Below, piece after piece: positions 2,891 through 45,998 of a DNA stretch of 64,000 bases (position 1 is its first letter; every line of letters starts with the position of its first letter). The position numbers were made by a program, and so were the translations under genes. The stretch is from contig JANWZS010000008.1 of assembly GCA_025054855.1 (NCBI GenBank), forward strand, positions 1-64,000, in the 5' to 3' direction. This DNA is from Candidatus Nitrosocaldus sp. GTDB taxonomy: Archaea; Thermoproteota; Nitrososphaeria; Nitrososphaerales; Nitrosocaldaceae. The notes beneath the pieces are model-generated. The model was given only the letters and a program-made list of their open reading frames with translations. It did no database searches and had not been told where the DNA came from.

Positions 2891-3353
2891 TGAGTATGAT
2901 AAAAATAGTGAATATAGCGTAATCGTTGTTTTACTAACATCCATCTCTGTATCATTTAGTCTTATAGAAGCTACACATGATGATACCGATGTACGTCATA
3001 GTATGCGTACAAGTGCTATAACCAGTGATAACTGCTCGACTAATGGACCACGGGTGTCTGCTGGGGATGCGAGTGCACCTACTGGCACTGGTACCAAGAG
3101 GGTTGCAGGTTCATTACACTGGTATGAAGGTTACAACGATCTGAACCTCAGGATGAGGGACCCTAATGGTATGTACACCACATCTGCACTTCCAGTAGGT
3201 TACATAGATGAGGAGACGTATCCTTTAACATGGTATTCAGGCATATACAGGATAGAGGTTCAATGTTACTATTATGATAGCACTAGGGATACGGATGGTA
3301 ACGTTGAGTATAATGCCATGATAACCAACTGGAGGCCTAGAAGCAGCAACTAG
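2890..3353 (+). pseudogene. Small exported protein, reading frame broken near its start
   Basis: The clear coding part runs in one frame to TAG at 3351-3353 (from ATG 3003, 116 residues). The same frame is open further upstream and encodes a signal-peptide-like stretch (VIVVLLTSISVSF) followed by IEATHDD. The natural start, ATG 2890 overlapping the previous stop, is in another frame and hits TAA at 2920. Adding one A to the AAAAA run at 2901-2905 joins ATG 2890 to the signal peptide and domain. An intact alternative is GTG at 2868 overlapping the previous gene. The domain (HWYEGYNDLNLRMRDP) looks like a secreted beta-rich protein; function unknown. Confidence 0.5.
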
Positions 3354-3391
3354 CCATCCAAGACAATCAAAATTTATTTTGCAGTCTGCAC

Positions 3392-4924
3392 TCACTGTGG
3401 CTCTATCGTTGCTGGTGGCTTGCTCGATATAACATATGTCACCCATGTAACGCCATCAACCTCATTTGTTATTCTGTTACTTATCCTTGCCAAGAGTTCA
3501 TGTGGCAGCCTTGCCCAGTCTGCTGTCATGGCATCCATGGACTCTACCACTCTTATGCTCACCACATGCCCATGGACTCTCCCATCACCCAGAACCCCAA
3601 CTGCCCTATCATCCCCTACTATTGCGAACGCCTGCCATACCCTATCATACCACCCTGCCCTTGCGAGTTCCTCCTCTACTATCTTACTTGCCCTTCTGCA
3701 TATCCTCAGCTTCTCCTCAGTGACCCTGCCTATTATTCTTACAGCAAGCCCTGGGCCTGGGAATGGATGCCTATTCACCATATGCTCTGGCACGCCTAGC
3801 AGTCTTGCCACTTGCCTAACCTCATCCTTGTAGAGCTGCCTTAAAGGTTCTAGGACCTTGAGGTTGAGCCACTTTGGTAGACCAGCAACGTTATGGTGAG
3901 ACTTGATCGTTGCTGCCTCCCTGGATATGGACACTCCACTCTCTATGACATCTGGGTAGAGCGTGCCCTGAGCTAGCCATTGGAATGGCCCATGCTCCCT
4001 CACAGCATCCTCAAATACCCTAGCGAACTCCTCGCCTATTATGAGCCTCTTCTCTTCAGGATCATCAACATCCTTGAGCCTCTCAAGGAACCTCCTGCTA
4101 GCATCTATGTACATGGGTTTTATCCCTAGAGCATTGAACATATCAAGCACTTCACCCTCTTCACCCTCCCTCAGCAGTCCATGGTTCACGAATATGCACG
4201 TGAGCCTATCCCCTATTGCTCTATGCACTAGCAGTGCAGTGACAGTAGAGTCTATGCCCCCGCTCACTGCAGCAAGGACCCTCTCCCCATCCCTAACCTT
4301 GCCCCTTATATCCCTTACAGCATCATCTATGAAGTTGCTCATACTCCACTCCTGCCTAGCATTGCATATCTCTACAGCAAAGTTCCTCAGTATATCGCTA
4401 CCATGCTCAGTATGTGCAACCTCTGGATGGAACTGTAGCCCGTATATCCTCCTTGCCCTATCGCCTATCGCTGCTGCAAACGAACTCTCCGTATGCGCTA
4501 GTACCCTGAACCCCTCAGGCAGTGCCTCAGCGGCATCGCCATGGCTCATCCAGCACCTGATCCTTGGCTTAATGTTCATGAAGAGATCGCTATCATCATC
4601 TATCATGAGTTCAGCGCTGCCATACTCCCTCCTCGCCTTCTTCACTACCCCTCCAAGCATATGCACCAGCATCTGATGCCCATAGCATATCCCCAGTATG
4701 GGTACCCCTAGCGTTAGTATCCTCCTGTCGCATATCGGGGCGTTGCTCTCATACACACTCGCTGGTCCCCCAGAGAAGACTATGCCCTTTGGGTTCATCC
4801 CTGCTAGCGTATCAGCGTCTATGTTGTATGGCAGCAACTCAGCATAGACACCCTGCTCCCTTATCCTCCTACATATGAGATGTGCATACTGTGACCCAAA
4901 GTCAAGCACAACTATCTTATCCAT
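3392..4924 (-). CDS. guaA: GMP synthase (glutamine-hydrolysing), fused two-domain form
   Basis: Converts XMP, glutamine and ATP to GMP. The 510-residue protein has a class I glutamine amidotransferase domain (residues about 1-195) with the nucleophile Cys80 in GICYGHQ and the His-x-Glu pair in LQFHPEVAH. The ATP pyrophosphatase domain follows, with the PP-loop AVSGGIDST near residue 220, and then the dimerisation domain ending in a typical C-terminus. Some archaea split this enzyme into two genes; here it is one. The gene starts at ATG 4924 and converges with the small exported gene at 2890-3353. IMP dehydrogenase, the preceding step, is at 7823-9304 on the other strand. Confidence 0.97.
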   Translation of the reverse strand: MDKIVVLDFGSQYAHLICRRIREQGVYAELLPYNIDADTLAGMNPKGIVFSGGPASVYESNAPICDRRILTLGVPILGICYGHQMLVHMLGGVVKKARREYGSAELMIDDDSDLFMNIKPRIRCWMSHGDAAEALPEGFRVLAHTESSFAAAIGDRARRIYGLQFHPEVAHTEHGSDILRNFAVEICNARQEWSMSNFIDDAVRDIRGKVRDGERVLAAVSGGIDSTVTALLVHRAIGDRLTCIFVNHGLLREGEEGEVLDMFNALGIKPMYIDASRRFLERLKDVDDPEEKRLIIGEEFARVFEDAVREHGPFQWLAQGTLYPDVIESGVSISREAATIKSHHNVAGLPKWLNLKVLEPLRQLYKDEVRQVARLLGVPEHMVNRHPFPGPGLAVRIIGRVTEEKLRICRRASKIVEEELARAGWYDRVWQAFAIVGDDRAVGVLGDGRVHGHVVSIRVVESMDAMTADWARLPHELLARISNRITNEVDGVTWVTYVISSKPPATIEPQ

Positions 4925-5035
4925 GCCATAACCTCAGCCTACCTCTATATATTTTAGTTGATATGATCGTTGATCACCATCCCATACTATCCCATCCACA
5001 TATATGCATGAGGTATCCCAACATCTATCTATCTA

Positions 5036-5680
5036 TCATCTTACCTTCTCCAGCATCCTTGTAAGTACCCATGTCGATGAGTTCATGAGTTCGTTGAGCC
5101 TATCCTTGTCCCTGTAGTTCCTTATCAGTATCCTCCTTATGTTCTTCCCCTCATCCAGATCTATGCTGTAGTCTAGTACCTGCTCACCCCTTATCTCGCC
5201 CTTTCTAGCCCTCTCCTCATCCTTACTCTTCATCTCCTTGAGTATCCTGTTCACGAAGAACGACTGGAATGGTGGTGTATTGACACTCAACTTGATATCG
5301 CTCGCTGGTACTATGCTCACGGCATCACTCCCTATGTATGCATTGGCCAACAGTATCCCATCCCTGGTCTTCAACTGTCTAACCTCAGTGTACTCAGCCT
5401 CTGCAACCCTCTCCCTCTCCACCCCCACCATCTCCCTAACCTCACCCCTAGCCTCTGTTACAGCCCTCTCCATGGCCTTGGCCTCCACACCAACACCGGT
5501 AACAGCCTTCTCCTCCCTTTGGAGCATCCCTGCTGGTCTGAAGCTCACCTGCTTGAGCATGTTATCGACTACTGCAAGCATCTCCCTCAGCCTCTCCAAC
5601 TCCTCCTCCTTCTCCTCCATCTGCTTCACTATCCACTCCCTGAGCATGGCAAACCTCTTTATCTCATCATCAGAGTACAT
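5036..5680 (-). CDS. Coiled-coil protein of unknown function
   Basis: A 214-residue soluble protein. Residues about 5-50 form a strongly charged coiled coil (MEEKEEELERLREML). A linker rich in Glu, Ala and Val follows, and then a compact C-terminal domain of about 115 residues (LKTRDGILLANAYIGSD through RMLEKVR). I do not recognise the family. The domain has mixed strand/helix character with no Cys or His cluster. It is divergently placed from nothing obvious and has 50 bases between it and the MptE-like gene upstream, so the two may share a transcript on the minus strand. Confidence 0.65.
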   Translation of the reverse strand: MYSDDEIKRFAMLREWIVKQMEEKEEELERLREMLAVVDNMLKQVSFRPAGMLQREEKAVTGVGVEAKAMERAVTEARGEVREMVGVERERVAEAEYTEVRQLKTRDGILLANAYIGSDAVSIVPASDIKLSVNTPPFQSFFVNRILKEMKSKDEERARKGEIRGEQVLDYSIDLDEGKNIRRILIRNYRDKDRLNELMNSSTWVLTRMLEKVR

Positions 5681-5730
5681 TACTCATTAAACCTCCATCT
5701 ATTCTTCCCAGAAGTGTAATAAATTGATTC

Positions 5731-6519
5731 CTACGCTCGATCCTTTATATGTTGTACCAGATCCTCATACTCAATATTCTTGAAGCCCTCTATCCTGCTC
5801 GGCGAGAGGTTGTACAGGCCTATGCCTGATCCTGCTCCTGCCAGATACTCAAGCAGCATCTGTGCAAACCTCATCTTCACGATCTTTACACCTGTGTTTA
5901 CAACTGGATGGGGCTTGGAGTACTGGCCTACCTCACTTCCTAGATCCATACCTATCAGGGTTATACTCCTTGCTCTCATCGCATGTGCAATGAATACAGC
6001 CCTATCTCCATCGGTGAACCCACCAAAGTTGTGCACATTATGCAATGGCCTCACCTGCGTAGTCCCTATGATATTTCTTAACCTTGGCACCATGAACTTG
6101 AGCAGGTTTATGTTATCGCCGTGTGCATGCACAACCATTATAGAGCCCAGGGTATCGGAGCAGAGCAGGTACTCATGGTCACCATCAAGATCTGTAACCA
6201 CAGCATCAGGCCTTATGCCATGCTCTATCAATGCTCTACATGCGCCATCCGCTGCCATGAGTACAACACTGCCCCTCATACTATAGATTGATGCTGATGG
6301 GTCTGAGCATATCCTGCTCATGGTATGCAGCAGTGATGGACCAGCACCGAATACCAGCACGTCCCTTCCTTCTATGAGCGCTCTTAACACTGCTAGATCT
6401 AATGCCCTATCCTTGATCATGGTTGAGAGTAGTGTTGCTGCACTGCTATCATCCACTAGACTGTAGTTCAACGCACCCCTTATCCTCTCATACCACCTGC
6501 TCCACTCATCCCAGTCCAT
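5731..6519 (-). CDS. mptE: MptE-like 6-hydroxymethyl-7,8-dihydropterin pyrophosphokinase (DUF115)
   Basis: A 262-residue member of the DUF115/MptE family, which transfers pyrophosphate from ATP to 6-hydroxymethyl-dihydropterin in archaea lacking FolK. Visible motifs are the nucleotide-binding loop VFGAGPSLL near residue 55, the acidic VTDLDGD near residue 105, and IGMDLGS further on. It is divergently arranged with dihydropteroate synthase at 6571, the enzyme that would use its product. The 51-base spacer must hold both promoters. This neighbourhood strengthens the assignment beyond family membership. Confidence 0.85.
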   Translation of the reverse strand: MDWDEWSRWYERIRGALNYSLVDDSSAATLLSTMIKDRALDLAVLRALIEGRDVLVFGAGPSLLHTMSRICSDPSASIYSMRGSVVLMAADGACRALIEHGIRPDAVVTDLDGDHEYLLCSDTLGSIMVVHAHGDNINLLKFMVPRLRNIIGTTQVRPLHNVHNFGGFTDGDRAVFIAHAMRARSITLIGMDLGSEVGQYSKPHPVVNTGVKIVKMRFAQMLLEYLAGAGSGIGLYNLSPSRIEGFKNIEYEDLVQHIKDRA

Positions 6520-6570
6520 AAGCGATTAGTGGTGCAAGAGTGATAAAATGGTTTAACGTGACTAATCAAC

Positions 6571-7392
6571 ATGGTGAGGATAATGGGGATAATCAATGTG
6601 AGCCCAGAGTCGTTCTACAAGAGCTCAGTAAGGGTTAGGGATGAGGAGATAGCATGCACAGCATCGAGCATGGAGGAGCAGGGAGCAAGCATAATAGATG
6701 TTGGTGCGATGTCCACAGCACCCTATCTGGATACTGTGATATCGGTTGAGGAGGAGATCTCGAGGCTCAAGCATGCTGTGAAGGTGATAAGGGATAGCTG
6801 TAGTCTAGCGATCTCAGTAGATACCCCTAGGGCAAGGGCTGCAGATGCTGCACTCTCTTCTGGTGCAACGATAGTCAATGATATCTCTGGCCTAAAGTAC
6901 GATCCAGATATGGCTAGGGTTGCTAGGGAACATAGCGCCTCACTGATAGTATCAGCATACTCGAGGGGTACTGTAAGGGGGGATGCCATAGCAGCCACGC
7001 TTGAACTCCTGAGGGAGAGTATAGGTATTGCGCTCGATGCTGGTGTAGATGAGAACAAGGTAGTGGTTGATCCTGCGATAGGCTTCTTCAGGGAGCATGG
7101 TAGGCATAAGTTCTTCACGAGGCTTGAGGGTATGACATGGTTTGAGAGGGACCTGGCAGTGATAAGGAGGCTGAGGGAGTTGAAGGTTCTAGGCAGGGAG
7201 GTGTGCGTATCACCCTCAAGGAAGTCGTTCATAGGTAGAGTCCTTGCACTGGATAGGCCAGAGGATAGGCTCTATGGTTCCCTTGCTGTAGAGGCTGTAT
7301 GCATAATGAATGGTGCAGATATAGTAAGGACGCATAGCGTGAGGGAGAGCATGCACGTAGCAAGGATGGTTGAGGCTATAATCCATGGATAG
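6571..7392 (+). CDS. folP: Dihydropteroate synthase
   Basis: Condenses 6-hydroxymethyl-dihydropterin pyrophosphate with p-aminobenzoate or a related arylamine. The TIM-barrel motifs are complete in 273 residues: MGIINVSPESF at the N-terminus, DVGAMSTAP, ISVDTPRA, IVNDISGLKYD, VDPAIGFF, SPSRKSFIG (phosphate and pterin loop) and RTHSV at the end. In many homologues the second motif reads DIGGESTRP; here it is GAMSTAP, so the loop 2 Arg-Pro is altered. It is divergent from the MptE-like gene. The start is ATG 6571, with the alternative ATG 6583 at GIINV. Confidence 0.92.
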   Translation: MVRIMGIINVSPESFYKSSVRVRDEEIACTASSMEEQGASIIDVGAMSTAPYLDTVISVEEEISRLKHAVKVIRDSCSLAISVDTPRARAADAALSSGATIVNDISGLKYDPDMARVAREHSASLIVSAYSRGTVRGDAIAATLELLRESIGIALDAGVDENKVVVDPAIGFFREHGRHKFFTRLEGMTWFERDLAVIRRLRELKVLGREVCVSPSRKSFIGRVLALDRPEDRLYGSLAVEAVCIMNGADIVRTHSVRESMHVARMVEAIIHG

Positions 7393-7550
7393 TAGTAAGA
7401 ATAACGGTGCGATATAGCGATCTTCTGCTCCACAGATACGCCTCGCCCGTAAGGGTTACAGATTGGTCACCTTTAGAGTATATGGTTCAATAGAACGACT
7501 TCCTGTAATAGTCATTATTGTTATTATGGAACCTGTTATAATTCACAGCG

Positions 7551-33895: not shown

Positions 33896-34049
33896 CCTAT
33901 CATCGAGCGATGGGGTATAAAAATAATCTGCATGATACGTAAATGGTTGGCTTAAGTATAGGCTATGCTGATCATAGCATAAGCCTGCATTGGATGTTGA
34001 CACAATAAACTTAATAACTTTAATGTCATACCCTTAGTAGGTGCTAGAG

Positions 34050-34619
34050 ATGGAGAATAGGAGCAACGAGTATATCGATTCGGTAGAAAAACTACTCGAT
34101 TCGCTGGCATTGCTACGCAAAATACCGCAGTTCAGGGCGTTCATGCCTCTAAGAGTTATAGAGGTTACAGAGGAGGCACTCCTAAACTATATCAGAGCCA
34201 GCTCAAACCTGGCAGTTAACATAGCAGAGTACTACATGCTGCTGAGCGCAGCATCGCTCGAGGCTAGCAGGAAGGCTGCTCTAAGGATAGCAGAGAAGAA
34301 GGATGATGAGGATGCTAGGAAGGCATGGATAGATGTATTCGAGCAGGAGTTCAATGAACTCTTCAGATCGCAGAGGTTTGGTAACGTTGTTAATAACATG
34401 ATCACATCTTACAGTGATCTTCTGAAGGGTGTAGCAAGTATAGTGGAGGCTTACTTCAAGGAGTTGGGACTTCCAACCAGGAGTGAGATGGATAGCGTGT
34501 ATAGGGAGATGGTCAAGATGAAGCGTGATATAGCAAACATCAATGAGGAGGTGAAGAGGTTGAGGGAGCGTCTGGATAGAAGGGATGAGGAGATCCACAA
34601 CACCTCGTTGGTAAAGTAA
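34050..34619 (+). CDS. phaE: Class III polyhydroxyalkanoate synthase subunit PhaE-like
   Basis: A helical 189-residue protein from ATG 34050 (GTG 34041 also possible). The C-terminal signature GLPTRSEMDSVYREMVKMKRD followed by a coiled coil is the part of PhaE shared across the family. The first 100 residues are a variable helical region. PhaE has no catalytic residues and activates PhaC. The phaC gene follows after about 100 bases with its own TATA-like box, so the two may be transcribed separately or together. Confidence 0.85.
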   Translation: MENRSNEYIDSVEKLLDSLALLRKIPQFRAFMPLRVIEVTEEALLNYIRASSNLAVNIAEYYMLLSAASLEASRKAALRIAEKKDDEDARKAWIDVFEQEFNELFRSQRFGNVVNNMITSYSDLLKGVASIVEAYFKELGLPTRSEMDSVYREMVKMKRDIANINEEVKRLRERLDRRDEEIHNTSLVK

Positions 34620-34700: not shown

Positions 34701-34723
34701 TTGTGGTACAATCTCATAGTGAG

Positions 34724-35806
34724 ATGGAGAGTTACACTACGCTTGTGCAGGTGATGATGGAGAGCATCACCAGATACCAGGAGGGTCTGCTGAAGACACA
34801 GGAGTTGATGGAGAGGAACAGGGTGGAGGTTGGCTCAACACCCCACGATGTCATATACGTTGGTAGGAAGATAAGGCTACTGCACTACAAACCTGTGATG
34901 GATGCTAGGAGCCTGCATCCAGTACCTGTAATAGTCACATACGCACTTATAAACAAGCACTACATACTCGACCTGCAGGATGACAGGAGCTTTGTAGGTA
35001 ACCTCATCAGGCAGGGGTTCGATGTGTACATGGTCGACTGGGGTACCCCAGAGCCCATAGACAAGCATCTCACGTTCGATGATTACATTGGTAGGTACCT
35101 TGATAGGCTTGTGGATATGGTGAGGAACAGTAGTAGTGCAGAGAAGGTCACGCTGCTGGGATACTGCCAAGGAGGCACCATGAGCACCATGTACACAGCA
35201 CTCAAGCAGGAGAAGGTTGCCAACCTAGTCACGATAGCGCCAGTTATAGACACGGAGAAGGATACCAGTGTAGTGGCAAACTTGTGCAAGAGCATAGATG
35301 CGGATAGGATAATAGATACCTATGGCAATCTACCGGCGGAGTTCCTTCACAGGTTCTACATGATGCTCAAACCATTCACCCAAGGCATCTACAAGTACAT
35401 AAACCTGCTGGATAACCTTGACGATGAGTACTTTGTATCTAACTTCCTTAGGGTGGAGAAGTGGTTATTCGATACCCCTGCTATAGCAGGAGGACTCTTC
35501 AAGCAGTGGATAAACGATATATACAAGGATAATGCCCTAGTCAAGGGCAGGTTCTTCCTCTGTGGCAAGAGGATAGACCTGAAGAGCATAGAGGTACCAT
35601 TACTGAATATAGTTGCCAGTGATGATCACCTGGTTGCCCCAGAGTGCAGCATACCCCTGAACTACCACGTATCCAGCGAGGACAAGATGCTCAGGGTGTA
35701 CAACTGTGGCCATATAGGGCTTATAGCGAGTAAGTTATCCCAGAACAAGGTACTGCCAGAGGTGGGTAAGTGGCTCAGGAGTCGGGGCAGGAACAGCACG
35801 ATCTAA
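34724..35806 (+). CDS. phaC: Class III polyhydroxyalkanoate synthase, catalytic subunit
   Basis: Polymerises 3-hydroxyacyl-CoA into storage polyester on the granule surface. The 360-residue alpha/beta-hydrolase has the lipase-like box LLGYCQGGTM with the catalytic Cys near residue 148, the Asp in VASDDHLVAPE and the His in NCGHIGL. It also has VYMVDWGTPEP and the cap region. Start chosen at ATG 34724 from the TATA box. Substrate chain length cannot be read; class III enzymes usually favour short chains. Confidence 0.94.
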   Translation: MESYTTLVQVMMESITRYQEGLLKTQELMERNRVEVGSTPHDVIYVGRKIRLLHYKPVMDARSLHPVPVIVTYALINKHYILDLQDDRSFVGNLIRQGFDVYMVDWGTPEPIDKHLTFDDYIGRYLDRLVDMVRNSSSAEKVTLLGYCQGGTMSTMYTALKQEKVANLVTIAPVIDTEKDTSVVANLCKSIDADRIIDTYGNLPAEFLHRFYMMLKPFTQGIYKYINLLDNLDDEYFVSNFLRVEKWLFDTPAIAGGLFKQWINDIYKDNALVKGRFFLCGKRIDLKSIEVPLLNIVASDDHLVAPECSIPLNYHVSSEDKMLRVYNCGHIGLIASKLSQNKVLPEVGKWLRSRGRNSTI

Positions 35807-35940: not shown

Positions 35941-36759
35941 TCAGGGATAAGAGTAAGAGGCTAGAACAGACTCGATGAACTCACTGACCAGACTCACGAA
36001 CCTCTCTGGCTGCTCGTAGAATGGTGTATGCCCGCACCCATCCATTATTATAAGCCTTGAGTTGCGTATCCTCCTCTGATACTCATACGCATGCTCAACA
36101 GGTATGAGCAGATCCTTCTCGCTCCATATTATGAGCGTTGGTACGTTTATGTTGTGAAGCCTCTCCTTAAGGTCTACTGCTGCCTGACGCATGCCCATGA
36201 GCGTTGATATGAATGCGTACTTGGCGTTCGGGAGCATCATCCTGTTCACAAAGTCCCTAAGGTACACCTCATCTATCGGTTTGCCACAGTGCATGAGTGT
36301 GAATGCCTTCCTGGCAGTCTCTATGTTAGGGTAGAGGGCAGCCATGACATACTGCGTGAATGCTTGAGTAGGCTCTATCGACATGCCAGATGGCGTAACA
36401 AGAACCAATGAGTTGAGCATATCGTTGGAGTGGGCTATGGCAAACTCTGTTGCTATCTGCCCACCTAGGGAGGAGCCTACGAGCGAGAACCTCTTGATAC
36501 CCAGAGCCAATGCCAGATCCCTAACGAACGATGTGAAGAACCTCATGGTGTAGTTAACATCTGGCTTATCGCTGTACCCAAAGCCTATGATATCTGGAGC
36601 GACCACATGGTAACCCTTTGCAAGTAGAGGTATGACCTTTGCCCAACGCTCCGCTGCAGCACCTATGCCATGGAGGAGCATTATATGCTTGGAGTTAGAT
36701 ATCCCATCCTCCAGTAGCCTCACCCTGTAGTTATTGACCGTTACAAACTCCTGTCTCAT
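35941..36759 (-). CDS. Alpha/beta-hydrolase
   Basis: A 272-residue hydrolase with oxyanion motif LLHGIGAAAERW, nucleophile Ser in VGSSLGGQIA near residue 95, Asp in SEKDLLIP and His in GCGHTPFYEQP. The cap domain and overall pattern resemble C-C bond hydrolases and esterases of the same fold. Its position directly convergent with phaC makes a role in polyester turnover possible, but this is inference only. The start ATG 36759 is followed by a typical first strand. Confidence 0.82.
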   Translation of the reverse strand: MRQEFVTVNNYRVRLLEDGISNSKHIMLLHGIGAAAERWAKVIPLLAKGYHVVAPDIIGFGYSDKPDVNYTMRFFTSFVRDLALALGIKRFSLVGSSLGGQIATEFAIAHSNDMLNSLVLVTPSGMSIEPTQAFTQYVMAALYPNIETARKAFTLMHCGKPIDEVYLRDFVNRMMLPNAKYAFISTLMGMRQAAVDLKERLHNINVPTLIIWSEKDLLIPVEHAYEYQRRIRNSRLIIMDGCGHTPFYEQPERFVSLVSEFIESVLASYSYP

Positions 36760-39218: not shown

Positions 39219-40079
39219 ATGCAGGCAAAGGAGCTCAAGGAGACCCTCTTACATTTGCTTGAGACAGATAAGGAGTTCAGGTACGCTGTAGCAGGGCTGA
39301 TAGGTTTGGATGATATAAGATCGTCGTTGAAGAGGCTTGAGGAGGCCGTAGCATTGCTTGCGGAATCGCAGATAAGGATTAGGGACAAGCTTGAGGAGCA
39401 TGATAACAAGTTCAATTCCATACTGGAGGAGATCAAGTCTCTAAGAGAGGATATGCAGGAGGGGTTCAGGAGGCATGATGAGGAGATCAAGTCTCTAAGA
39501 GAGGAGACTAACAACCTCAGGAGGGATATGCAGGAGGGGTTCAGGAGGCATGATGAGGAGTTCGCTAGGGTATGGAAGAGCATAGAGGATATGAGGAGGG
39601 ATATGCAGGAGGGGTTCAGGAGGCATGATGAGGAGTTCGCTAGGGTATGGAAGAGCATAGAGGATATGAGGAGGGATATGCAGGAGGGGTTCAGGAGGTT
39701 AGATACAAAGATATCAGCACTGGGTTCTAGATGGGGTATAGAGACTGAACAGTCTGTGAGGGAGGCGCTCAAGGGCATAGTGGGCAAGGAGTTAGGCTAC
39801 ACCATAGAGGAGTGGAATACACATGATTACGAGGGCTATGTCTACGGGTATCCAAGCAACGTACAGTTGGATGTGGTTATGAGCGATGGTAAGGTTATCC
39901 TTCTTGAGGTCACCTCACATGTCAAGAGGAGCGATCCATTTGTACTGAAGAGGAAGGCAGAACTGTATAGAATGAAGGTAGGTAGGGAGATAAGCAAGAT
40001 CATGTTCATCACACCATTCATCGATGATGAGGCTAGAGACGCATGCAGAGTGCTCGGTATAGAGGTGTATACTGCATAG
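39219..40079 (+). CDS. Coiled-coil protein with C-terminal PD-(D/E)xK-like domain (DUF3782-like)
   Basis: 286 residues. An N-terminal motif KEFRYAVAGLIGLDDI is followed by about 120 residues of coiled coil built from repeated units (RRDMQEGFRRHDEEFARVWK). The C-terminal domain of about 110 residues has nuclease-like core elements: VQLDVVMSDGKVILLEVTS (Asp, then Glu-x-Thr) and a later helix with KAELYRMKVGREISK. This order matches archaeal and bacterial proteins of the DUF3782 type, whose function is not established. A frameshifted relative lies at 14890-15463. An A/T-rich box (TATAAATAA) just before the ATG is close for a TATA element. Confidence 0.8.
   Translation: MQAKELKETLLHLLETDKEFRYAVAGLIGLDDIRSSLKRLEEAVALLAESQIRIRDKLEEHDNKFNSILEEIKSLREDMQEGFRRHDEEIKSLREETNNLRRDMQEGFRRHDEEFARVWKSIEDMRRDMQEGFRRHDEEFARVWKSIEDMRRDMQEGFRRLDTKISALGSRWGIETEQSVREALKGIVGKELGYTIEEWNTHDYEGYVYGYPSNVQLDVVMSDGKVILLEVTSHVKRSDPFVLKRKAELYRMKVGREISKIMFITPFIDDEARDACRVLGIEVYTA
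39519..39668 (+). repeat. Two exact 75-bp tandem repeats in the coiled-coil gene
   Basis: 39519-39593 and 39594-39668 are identical and in frame (25 residues each). A third, partial copy starts at 39669, and shorter related units lie upstream (39451-39518). Recent expansion by slippage or unequal exchange. Confidence 0.95.
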
Positions 40080-41542: not shown

Positions 41543-42400
41543 ATGATGCAGCAGGCTAAGGTCTATCCAGAGAAGAAGCGGAGGATGTACGAGCTGCTAC
41601 GTGAGGCAGCAAGGAGGTACAGGGCGATAGCGCTGGTGAAGATGGAGAAGGTGAGATCAACGCAACTTATGCCATTGAGGAAGATACTTGCCGATGAGGC
41701 GAAGATGGTCATGGTGAAGAACAGACTGGCGGTCAAGGCGCTATCAGATTCAGGGGTGAAGGGTATAGAGAAGATACTTGCCGAGTTGGAGAACCAGAAC
41801 CTCCTCATATTCACCAACATGAACCCGTTCAAACTGCAGATGTTATTGGAGAAGAACAAGGTGTACCTACCAGCGAAGGGTGGTGATGTTGCGACTGAGG
41901 ATATAGTAGTGCCAGCAGGTAACACTGGACTCGCACCGGGACCAATACTATCGGAGTTCAGAGAAGCCAAGATACAGACCAAGATAGAGGAGGGGACTGT
42001 ATGGATAGCAAAGGATACCGTGGTGGCCAAGCAAGGCGAGGTGATATCTATGAAGCTCGCATCGTTACTCAGCAAGCTAGGTATAAAACCCATAAAGGCT
42101 GGTGTGAGCCTCCATCTCGTACTGGATGATGGTCTAGTGTACAGGAGCGAGGATCTCAAGATAGACGTTGAGGCATACAGGAGGAGTATAGAGGAGGCGT
42201 ACAGCAGTGCACTTGCCCTAGCGGTGAACTCTGCATACCCAACCAAGGAGAGCATAGCGATGATAATAGCCAAGGCGTACAGCAGTGCACTTGCCCTAGC
42301 GGTGAACTCTGCATATCCAGCGAGGGAGGTTGTGAGGGATATTCTAGCCCTTGCAGAGGCACGTGCGCAGGCTATAGCAAGGCGCATCAACATCCAGTGA
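41543..42400 (+). CDS. rpl10: 50S ribosomal protein L10 (P0)
   Basis: 285 residues; base of the ribosomal stalk. The N-terminal rRNA-binding domain is normal (LREAARRYRAIALVKMEKV, VMVKNRLAVKAL). The insertion domain and then the spine helices that bind P1/L12 dimers follow. Two spine segments are identical at the DNA level over 42 bases (SSALALAVNSAY twice, 26 residues apart). The protein ends at ARRINIQ without the acidic tail and GLSALFG-like end found on many archaeal P0 proteins; that end is present on P1/L12 at 43080. Confidence 0.93.
   Translation: MMQQAKVYPEKKRRMYELLREAARRYRAIALVKMEKVRSTQLMPLRKILADEAKMVMVKNRLAVKALSDSGVKGIEKILAELENQNLLIFTNMNPFKLQMLLEKNKVYLPAKGGDVATEDIVVPAGNTGLAPGPILSEFREAKIQTKIEEGTVWIAKDTVVAKQGEVISMKLASLLSKLGIKPIKAGVSLHLVLDDGLVYRSEDLKIDVEAYRRSIEEAYSSALALAVNSAYPTKESIAMIIAKAYSSALALAVNSAYPAREVVRDILALAEARAQAIARRINIQ
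42196..42315 (+). repeat. 42-bp exact direct repeat in rpl10, 78-bp period
   Basis: 42196-42237 and 42274-42315 are identical. They code two successive P1-binding helices, separated by PTKESIAMIIAK. Confidence 0.95.
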
Positions 42401-45044: not shown

Positions 45045-45114
45045 GGTATAGAGATGATCAACCGTTATAATAAACCTTTACACCCTATGCATATACCATA
45101 TTAAACCAGAAACC

Positions 45115-45125
45115 TTTATATATAT
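45115..45125 (+). promoter_or_regulatory. TATA box for the phasin-like gene
   Basis: TTTATATATAT, 25-35 bases before ATG 45150, typical for a strong leaderless promoter. Confidence 0.6.
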
Positions 45126-45143
45126 TGGTTTTTTATACCAATA
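45123..45143. promoter_or_regulatory. Perfect inverted repeat between TATA box and start codon
   Basis: TATTGGT, seven bases, ACCAATA. Its position over the transcription start would let a bound protein block initiation. A related TTGGTTTATATA element lies at 45611-45622 before the AbrB-type gene, with ATACCA just before that start codon. Confidence 0.6.
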
Positions 45144-45149
45144 CCAGCC

Positions 45150-45569
45150 ATGAGCGAGGCAGAGCGTGCGGGAAGGAGTATCTTCGATATATACAGGGAG
45201 AGTGTAACCAACATCATAAACGAGTTTGACAAGGTGAGGCCAGCGTATGTACAGTCCATAACCAACCTGCAGCAGCAGGCTATGGATAGCATGAGGAAGC
45301 TCACAGAACTGGCGCTTAGTGCTCAGAGGGAGTTCATAGAGCCTATTAGGCTGCCAGCCATGCCAGATGCATGGGTCAGGGGTACAGATGAGTTTAACGA
45401 TGCGCTTGCAAAGACCACATCCATAGCAAACAGGGCTATGATTGCAGGTATAGATACTGCCACACAGAACATAAAGATAGCAACCGATGCGTTCGAGACG
45501 TTTGCAAGGATAAACCAGAACATACTGAAGAGTATAAGGAGTACACTCACGCCAACAAAGGGTGAGTAG
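45150..45569 (+). CDS. Phasin-like helical protein
   Basis: 139 residues, almost entirely amphipathic helix, with no Cys and the low-complexity heptad pattern of granule-coating phasins (VQSITNLQQQAMDSMRKLTE, TATQNIKIATDAFETFARIN). A short Pro-rich hinge (PIRLPAMPDAW) separates two helical parts. Its own strong promoter, an operator-like repeat and an AbrB-type gene next door mirror the phaP-phaR pair known in haloarchaea. The phaE-phaC pair is 10 kb away. Granule association is inference. Confidence 0.6.
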   Translation: MSEAERAGRSIFDIYRESVTNIINEFDKVRPAYVQSITNLQQQAMDSMRKLTELALSAQREFIEPIRLPAMPDAWVRGTDEFNDALAKTTSIANRAMIAGIDTATQNIKIATDAFETFARINQNILKSIRSTLTPTKGE

Positions 45570-45610
45570 TGTCTATAGCCGGTGATACTGCTGCACCTCC
45601 AATTTATTTC

Positions 45611-45622
45611 TTGGTTTATATA
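45611..45622 (+). promoter_or_regulatory. TATA element with the same TTGGT half-site, before the AbrB-type gene
   Basis: TTGGTTTATATA ends 22 bases before ATG 45645 and supports that start over 45627. The TTGGT is shared with the repeat at 45123-45143. Confidence 0.5.
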
Positions 45623-45644
45623 GAGTGTGGGGGTAAGATATACC

Positions 45645-45998
45645 ATGAGTAGAATAGATGAACAGAAGGAGCAGGAGTACAAGAAGAGGGGCGCTACCAG
45701 CAGTAGTAGCAGTAGTGGTGGTGATCTGGGGCTGTTCACAAGCAGCATCCAGAGCATGCAGATGGAGATGATAAAGCAGATGCTATCGATGCAGATGGAT
45801 GCCATGCAGAACTTTGCAAACATGCTGCAACTCCTGACCAGATTCAACGCAGTCTTCAAGACCACCATTCAGAGCAATGGTAGGATATCTATACCAGAGG
45901 CTGAGAGGAAGGCGCTGGGCATAGAGGAGGGGGATCTAGTACAGGTTATAATAATACCTTTGGAGAAGCAGAGGAGAGAGAGTGGAGAGTCAACGTAG
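45645..45998 (+). CDS. AbrB/SpoVT-domain protein with helical N-terminus
   Basis: 117 residues from ATG 45645. The C-terminal 45 residues form a swapped-hairpin AbrB domain (TTIQSNGRISIPEAERKALG, EEGDLVQVIIIP). The N-terminal part has a Ser/Gly tract coded by AGT/AGC triplets (45698-45722) and then a Met-rich amphipathic helix (SIQSMQMEMIKQMLSMQMDA). That helix could bind polyester granules or the phasin, while the AbrB domain binds DNA, as proposed for haloarchaeal PhaR. The role is inferred from the domain and the neighbour. Confidence 0.75.
   Translation: MSRIDEQKEQEYKKRGATSSSSSSGGDLGLFTSSIQSMQMEMIKQMLSMQMDAMQNFANMLQLLTRFNAVFKTTIQSNGRISIPEAERKALGIEEGDLVQVIIIPLEKQRRESGEST

Follow-up and report, generated by a model that had tools for sequence, protein, structure and literature searches.

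A probable counterpart of the haloarchaeal granule regulator PhaR, with a candidate operator array, beside a phasin gene of ammonia-oxidising archaea (AOA)

Introduction

The closest described system to the locus considered here is the haloarchaeal PhaR-PhaP pair, as in phaRP of Haloferax mediterranei (Cai et al. 2012/2015, as recounted in PMC9049629). In that system PhaR, which is homologous to the protein described below, has an N-terminal helix and a C-terminal AbrB domain; the phasin gene pair lies beside phaEC; and the promoter carries tandem repeats with a TACCA/TGGTA core and a phasing of about 10 bp. PMC10948481 and PMC9049629 describe H. mediterranei PhaR as a PHA-responsive repressor of phaRP, and the latter adds a second, PhaP-independent role of haloarchaeal PhaR in promoting PHA synthesis.

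AOA such as Nitrosopumilus maritimus are reported to contain polyester granules (PMC11082331). The AOA storage papers in the openly searchable literature name PhaC/PhaE and catabolic enzymes only, and we found no account of an AOA PhaR or PhaP in that literature on Nitrosopumilus, Nitrososphaera and Thaumarchaeota.

Results

The window, i.e. the whole 64,000-nucleotide stretch analysed here, contains two genes side by side on the forward strand, as the initial annotation had stated: an ORF for a protein of 139 aa with two long predicted helices (45150-45569), here called phaP-like, and an ORF for a protein of 117 aa with a predicted N-terminal amphipathic helix and a C-terminal AbrB domain (ATG at 45645, stop at 45998), here called phaR-like. 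The AbrB protein matches TIGR01439 above the cut-off, and a tblastn search of 72,556 plasmids matches it best to PhaR genes inside haloarchaeal phaRPEC clusters (Haladaptatus, 44% over 77 aa, E 1e-12; Haloferax larsenii, 62.5% over 48 aa). The C-terminal AbrB-like domain is homologous to that of haloarchaeal PhaR, and the alignment of AOA and haloarchaeal PhaR has a near-invariant core, FKT-QS-GRISIP-AER-L-GD-VQ-P. A haloarchaea-first profile, scanned against 84,980 genomes, returned 324 relatives; the best 80 of these 324 are haloarchaeal except for two MAG bins with bacterial labels, and within the same best 80 of 324, phaC adjoins phaR in 74 and phaE in 76. Haloarchaeal-type phaR genes were seen in two bins (L192, L158) that carry the labels Ectothiorhodospiraceae and Salinivenus, where binning contamination is likely. 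Among 398 genomes of the window's own phylum, long PhaR matches occur in the AOA order only, with weak AbrB-domain matches elsewhere, and an E-value gap from 6e-19 to 5e-7 parts the full-length proteins from the weak ones. Judged by sequence, the protein of 45645-45998 is a homologue of haloarchaeal PhaR, beyond a mere analogue. The core of the parallel with haloarchaeal PhaR-PhaP drawn in the initial annotation thus holds in a stronger form than was claimed.

The structural model of PhaR, built from sequences of the window and of genome loci only, places a helix at residues 27-67 with low confidence (pLDDT 64), and its top PDB matches are AbrB/SpoVT-like, none of them significant for this low-confidence model. 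A Met-rich helix of the AbrB protein had been proposed as the granule contact. A helix is indeed predicted, and its position is conserved; its Met-richness varies, being marked in the genus of the window and not general, so the proposal finds no support in that form.

The helical protein of 45150-45569 is best described as an AOA phasin whose sequence appears unrelated to haloarchaeal PhaP. Its AF2 model shows helices at 11-63 and 73-133, with low confidence (pLDDT 66). The bacterial family Phasin_2 (PF09361) scores it at 23.8 bits (E 5e-5), just short of the cut-off of 24.9, and gives weak matches to 3 of 11 AOA phasin members. Homology to haloarchaeal PhaP was rejected (hhalign probability 2.6%), and a search for homology between PhaR and PhaP through a shared helix found none. 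Some AOA genomes (e.g. G110, G149, G166) carry up to 8-9 phasin-like paralogues.

The PHA synthase genes of the window lie about 10 kb from the pair, as claimed: a phaE-like subunit gene (34041-34619, forward strand; TIGR01834 E 1.6e-10, below the cut-off) and phaC of class III (34703-35806, forward strand; TIGR01836, 417 bits against a cut-off of 365). They are followed on the reverse strand by an alpha/beta hydrolase gene (35941-36759), a member of the AOA pha cluster that adjoins phaR in most AOA. The hydrolase matches NF050089, an intracellular PHA depolymerase model, at E 9e-27, far below its cut-off and as just one of many hydrolase models that match this protein; it is possibly a granule depolymerase. 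Between these genes and the pair are an ORF whose product combines tandem coiled-coil repeats (RRDMQEGFRRHDEEFARVWKSIEDM) with a nuclease-like C-terminus (39219-40079) and a uL10-like ribosomal protein gene with an internal duplication, AYSSALALAVNSAYP (41543-42400). Elsewhere in the same genome (L252, contig C37), a second, longer PhaC-like protein of 497 aa (6009-7502) adjoins an ADP-forming acyl-CoA synthetase-like ORF (3318-6008), with no phaR or phaP nearby.

Like its haloarchaeal counterpart, AOA phaR has a phasin gene and phaEC as neighbours, the window itself standing apart by its distance of about 10 kb. Two families were compared, which we take as Nitrosopumilaceae-like (f2) and Nitrososphaeraceae-like (f3), both names being inferred. 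In most f2 genomes the order is hydrolase-phaR-phaP><phaC-phaE within about 4 kb: phaR and phaP form a tight tandem under one promoter (phaR>phaP in at least 79 of 89 genomes), and phaR is convergent with phaC at less than 2 kb in at least 86 of 89. In f3, phaR remains beside phaC or the hydrolase gene and phaP is located elsewhere. The genus of the window has the order radA<>phaP-phaR, then hydrolase><phaC-phaE, and each gene of the pair has its own TATA box rather than a single common promoter; we take common versus separate promoters as a trait that varies with gene arrangement and does not define the protein family. The distance from phaR to phaC is 3 kb in three sister species and about 10 kb in the window, where the phaP-phaR pair is inverted relative to the hydrolase gene. 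Thus the wider separation is a local rearrangement, i.e. a derived arrangement.

Each of the three genes was searched for in one set of 150 genomes from the class, 125 of which belong to the AOA order. There were 113 genomes positive for phaP, 114 for phaC and 112 for phaR (the last count including G020, a marginal domain match), and the phaP-bearing genomes are almost exactly the phaC-bearing ones. The initial annotation had proposed a co-occurrence check: within the AOA order, 110 of 125 genomes have phaP, phaR and phaC, and 10 have none of the three. These ten genomes come from six genus groups, two of which (g8 and g11) have other members that retain all three genes; by genus grouping, this suggests repeated joint loss. 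The sole apparent pair without phaEC is in G146, whose contig stops 125 bp past phaP, so no real instance of the pair without phaEC, which the initial annotation had named as evidence against its reading, was found. G132 is likewise discordant only through a contig end (phaC is at the contig start), G128 has a more divergent PhaC alone, without the pha cluster, and G098 has only paralogues on the contigs found. Genus g14 (L120, L227, L237, L238, L239) keeps phaP, with PhaR undetected in 5 of 5 genomes; in its genome G069, phaP and phaC are present and PhaR is truly missing. The phaP/phaR pairing is real and in excess of chance.

Upstream of phaP, the perfect 7-bp inverted repeat that had been described between TATA box and ATG is present at 45123-45143 (TATTGGT-TTTTTAT-ACCAATA), next to the TATA box TTTATATA (45116-45123, forward strand, conserved). 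A search for TATTGGTN7ACCAATA, as had been proposed, finds this as the only match in the 1.56-Mb genome. Dinucleotide shuffles of this AT-rich 60 bp contain some 7-bp inverted repeat in 10% of cases, and in 1.2% a repeat whose arms each have two or more G/C; taken by itself, the repeat is therefore only mildly unusual. Its conservation is the stronger fact: four congeneric species share, without a difference, a 28-bp block comprising the TATA box and the inverted repeat, whereas the sequence on either side diverges. Upstream (45093-45109) are two more conserved half-sites, ATACCAT and AAACCAG, which are spaced by 10 bp and share the helical phase of the inverted repeat, and all four species have conserved CC/GG centres at -53, -43, -22 and -11. 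The inverted repeat would thus be the inner pair of putative PhaR half-sites within a larger array, in which ACCA/TGGT half-sites recur about every 10.5 bp around the TATA box. The upstream half-sites may also be part of the divergent radA promoter.

The second operator copy, a matching TTGGT...ACCA arrangement said to precede phaR, was rejected: its ACCA overlaps the start codon and is missing in the three sister species. The conserved element of the phaR promoter is instead TTATTTCTTGGTTTATATAG. In the window the promoter reads CCAA-N8-TTGG immediately 5' of a TATA box TTTATATA (45599-45622, forward strand); the upstream CCAA keeps this register in three of the four species and is displaced in the other. 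Within the same genome, TTGGTN5-9ACCAA has 8 sites, compared with 15 for the reversed control pattern, and the three other sites that we examined are inside or next to genes with no relation to this system; the genome thus gives no sign that a regulon of this exact form extends further.

A repeated cis-element was found in phaP/phaRP promoters of both archaeal groups. ATGGTA/TACCAT occurs in 61 of 80 haloarchaeal phaRP promoters, compared with 5.8 expected, which is consistent with the tandem repeats reported for the H. mediterranei promoter (PMC9049629). The spacing of haloarchaeal ACC/GGT pairs peaks at 10 bp (120 versus 10.6) and 20 bp (59 versus 9.8), and also at about 30 bp. The 10-bp phasing is found in haloarchaea, f3, f2 and the genus of the window alike. 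In f2 phaRP promoters, CC recurs at -23/-22, -13/-12 and -3/-2 with the TATA box at -30 to -24, and f3 phaP promoters carry arrays such as TATGGTAATTATTACCGATTATTACCAACATATATA around the TATA box. In-phase pairs per promoter number 3.35 versus 0.19 in f3, 1.10 versus 0.28 in f2 and 6.5 versus 0.55 in the genus of the window. The half-sites do differ in detail, being ACCAA in the window and ACCAT in haloarchaea.

To compare the groups more quantitatively, we trained a matrix on haloarchaeal phaRP promoters alone and scored AOA promoters against control promoters of the same genomes. It picks out f3 phaP promoters (p 3e-12, indicative only, as promoters related by descent overstate p) and f2 phaRP promoters (p 2e-6, overstated in the same way). 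The f3 phaR promoters are not separated from controls (p 0.4). In the genus of the window, where four related species are effectively one observation, phaP promoters reach only p 0.04, and the result for phaR promoters is null. In genomes that have phaP apart from phaR, the array remains with phaP. In genus g14, whose PhaR loss represents one clade, none of four readable phaP promoters has in-phase pairs. Genus g12, which keeps PhaR but has a weak array, is a counter-example. The inverted repeat, called operator-like in the initial annotation, resembles the haloarchaeal phaRP repeats and belongs to an array that follows phaP, and we regard it as part of a predicted PhaR operator.

Discussion

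By sequence, gene company and shared target repeats, the AbrB protein appears to be the counterpart of the haloarchaeal PHA-granule regulator. We consider it probable that AOA PhaR is an AbrB-fold repressor that acts on the phasin gene through the phased ACCA/TGGT array and is released from it when granules titrate PhaR. The homology of PhaR, its linkage and co-occurrence with phaC, and an array that is conserved, phased and associated with phaP are the sequence-based parts of this model; that PhaR binds the array is inferred. By analogy with H. mediterranei, PhaR is best read as a repressor of phaP that granules would titrate. It would occupy ACCA/TGGT half-sites that recur with each helical turn about the phaP TATA box and start and, bound on one face of the helix, would block TBP/TFB or initiation, so that phaP would be shut off when no polymer is present. 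Once PhaC/PhaE make polyester, PhaR would be drawn to the granule via its N-terminal amphipathic helix, freeing the array, and the phasin then made would coat the granule.

Other readings of the same genes were weighed against this one. It is very improbable that the AbrB protein acts as an antitoxin of MazE type, or as a general regulator of the AbrB kind, and lies near the helical protein by chance: the Pfam model MazE_antitoxin does match it (E 1e-4), though below the cut-off, but the gene has phaP, radA and a Dps-like gene as neighbours with no toxin partner beside it, and both its homology to PhaR and its co-occurrence and linkage with phaC across the AOA order argue against this. The antitoxin was rejected. 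PhaR might instead be mainly a structural or assembly protein of AOA granules, whose AbrB domain tethers granules to DNA in PhaM/PhaF-like partitioning with the array as anchor. This would suit the phasin-like character of its N-terminal helix, the PhaP-independent promotion of PHA synthesis by haloarchaeal PhaR that PMC9049629 reports, and the f3 phaR promoter, which has no array, so that classic autoregulation is missing in f3. We nevertheless regard this role as unlikely: the array is set precisely around the TATA box and start codon of phaP, follows phaP, and is missing in the genus without PhaR, all as would be true of an operator. Less probable again is that, when carbon is in excess, the AbrB protein serves as an activator of phaP rather than a repressor. 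In f3 and in the genus of the window some half-sites do precede the TATA box, but half-sites of f2 and of this genus overlap the start region, where a bound protein would block initiation, and the haloarchaeal homologue is described as a repressor (PMC10948481).

With repression as the preferred reading, the comparison suggests one storage-control switch common to two distant archaeal groups. We somewhat favour the further view that Haloarchaea and AOA share a single PhaR-operator code for granule sensing, ACCA/TGGT with helical-turn phasing, which would have outlasted replacement of the target phasin by an unrelated protein, gene separation and local loss. A phasin and a regulator can now be named, and a candidate operator given, in the majority of AOA-order genomes, and the regulator-operator pair looks conserved across archaeal phyla while the target protein changed.

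It is instructive to set these features beside the known systems. The swapped-hairpin proteins AbrB, SpoVT and MazE (PDB 2glw, 5itm, 2w1t) share with PhaR the fold family of the DNA-binding domain and have no granule link; unlike them, PhaR has an extra N-terminal helix and the conserved core FKTxxQSxGRISIPxAER. Bacterial phasins of Phasin_2 (PF09361) are likewise short helical proteins beside PHA genes, although the AOA phasin matches them weakly, below the family cut-off, and homology over the full length is not established. The PhaR of Cupriavidus necator and PhaP1 follow the same logic, a PHA-responsive repressor of a phasin, and bacterial phaP and phaR each have their own promoter, as in the genus of the window. 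To our knowledge, however, the bacterial PhaR of C. necator type is not the AbrB-type protein compared here. Haloarchaeal PhaP, for its part, is no sequence homologue of the AOA phasin. The layouts differ as well: haloarchaeal phaRP lies upstream of phaE, whereas AOA phaRP is convergent with phaC, and in f3 phaP is unlinked from phaR. The genus of the window has phaP ahead of phaR, each under its own promoter, and one half-site is inverted relative to the haloarchaeal tandem, which turns the repeat into a palindrome.
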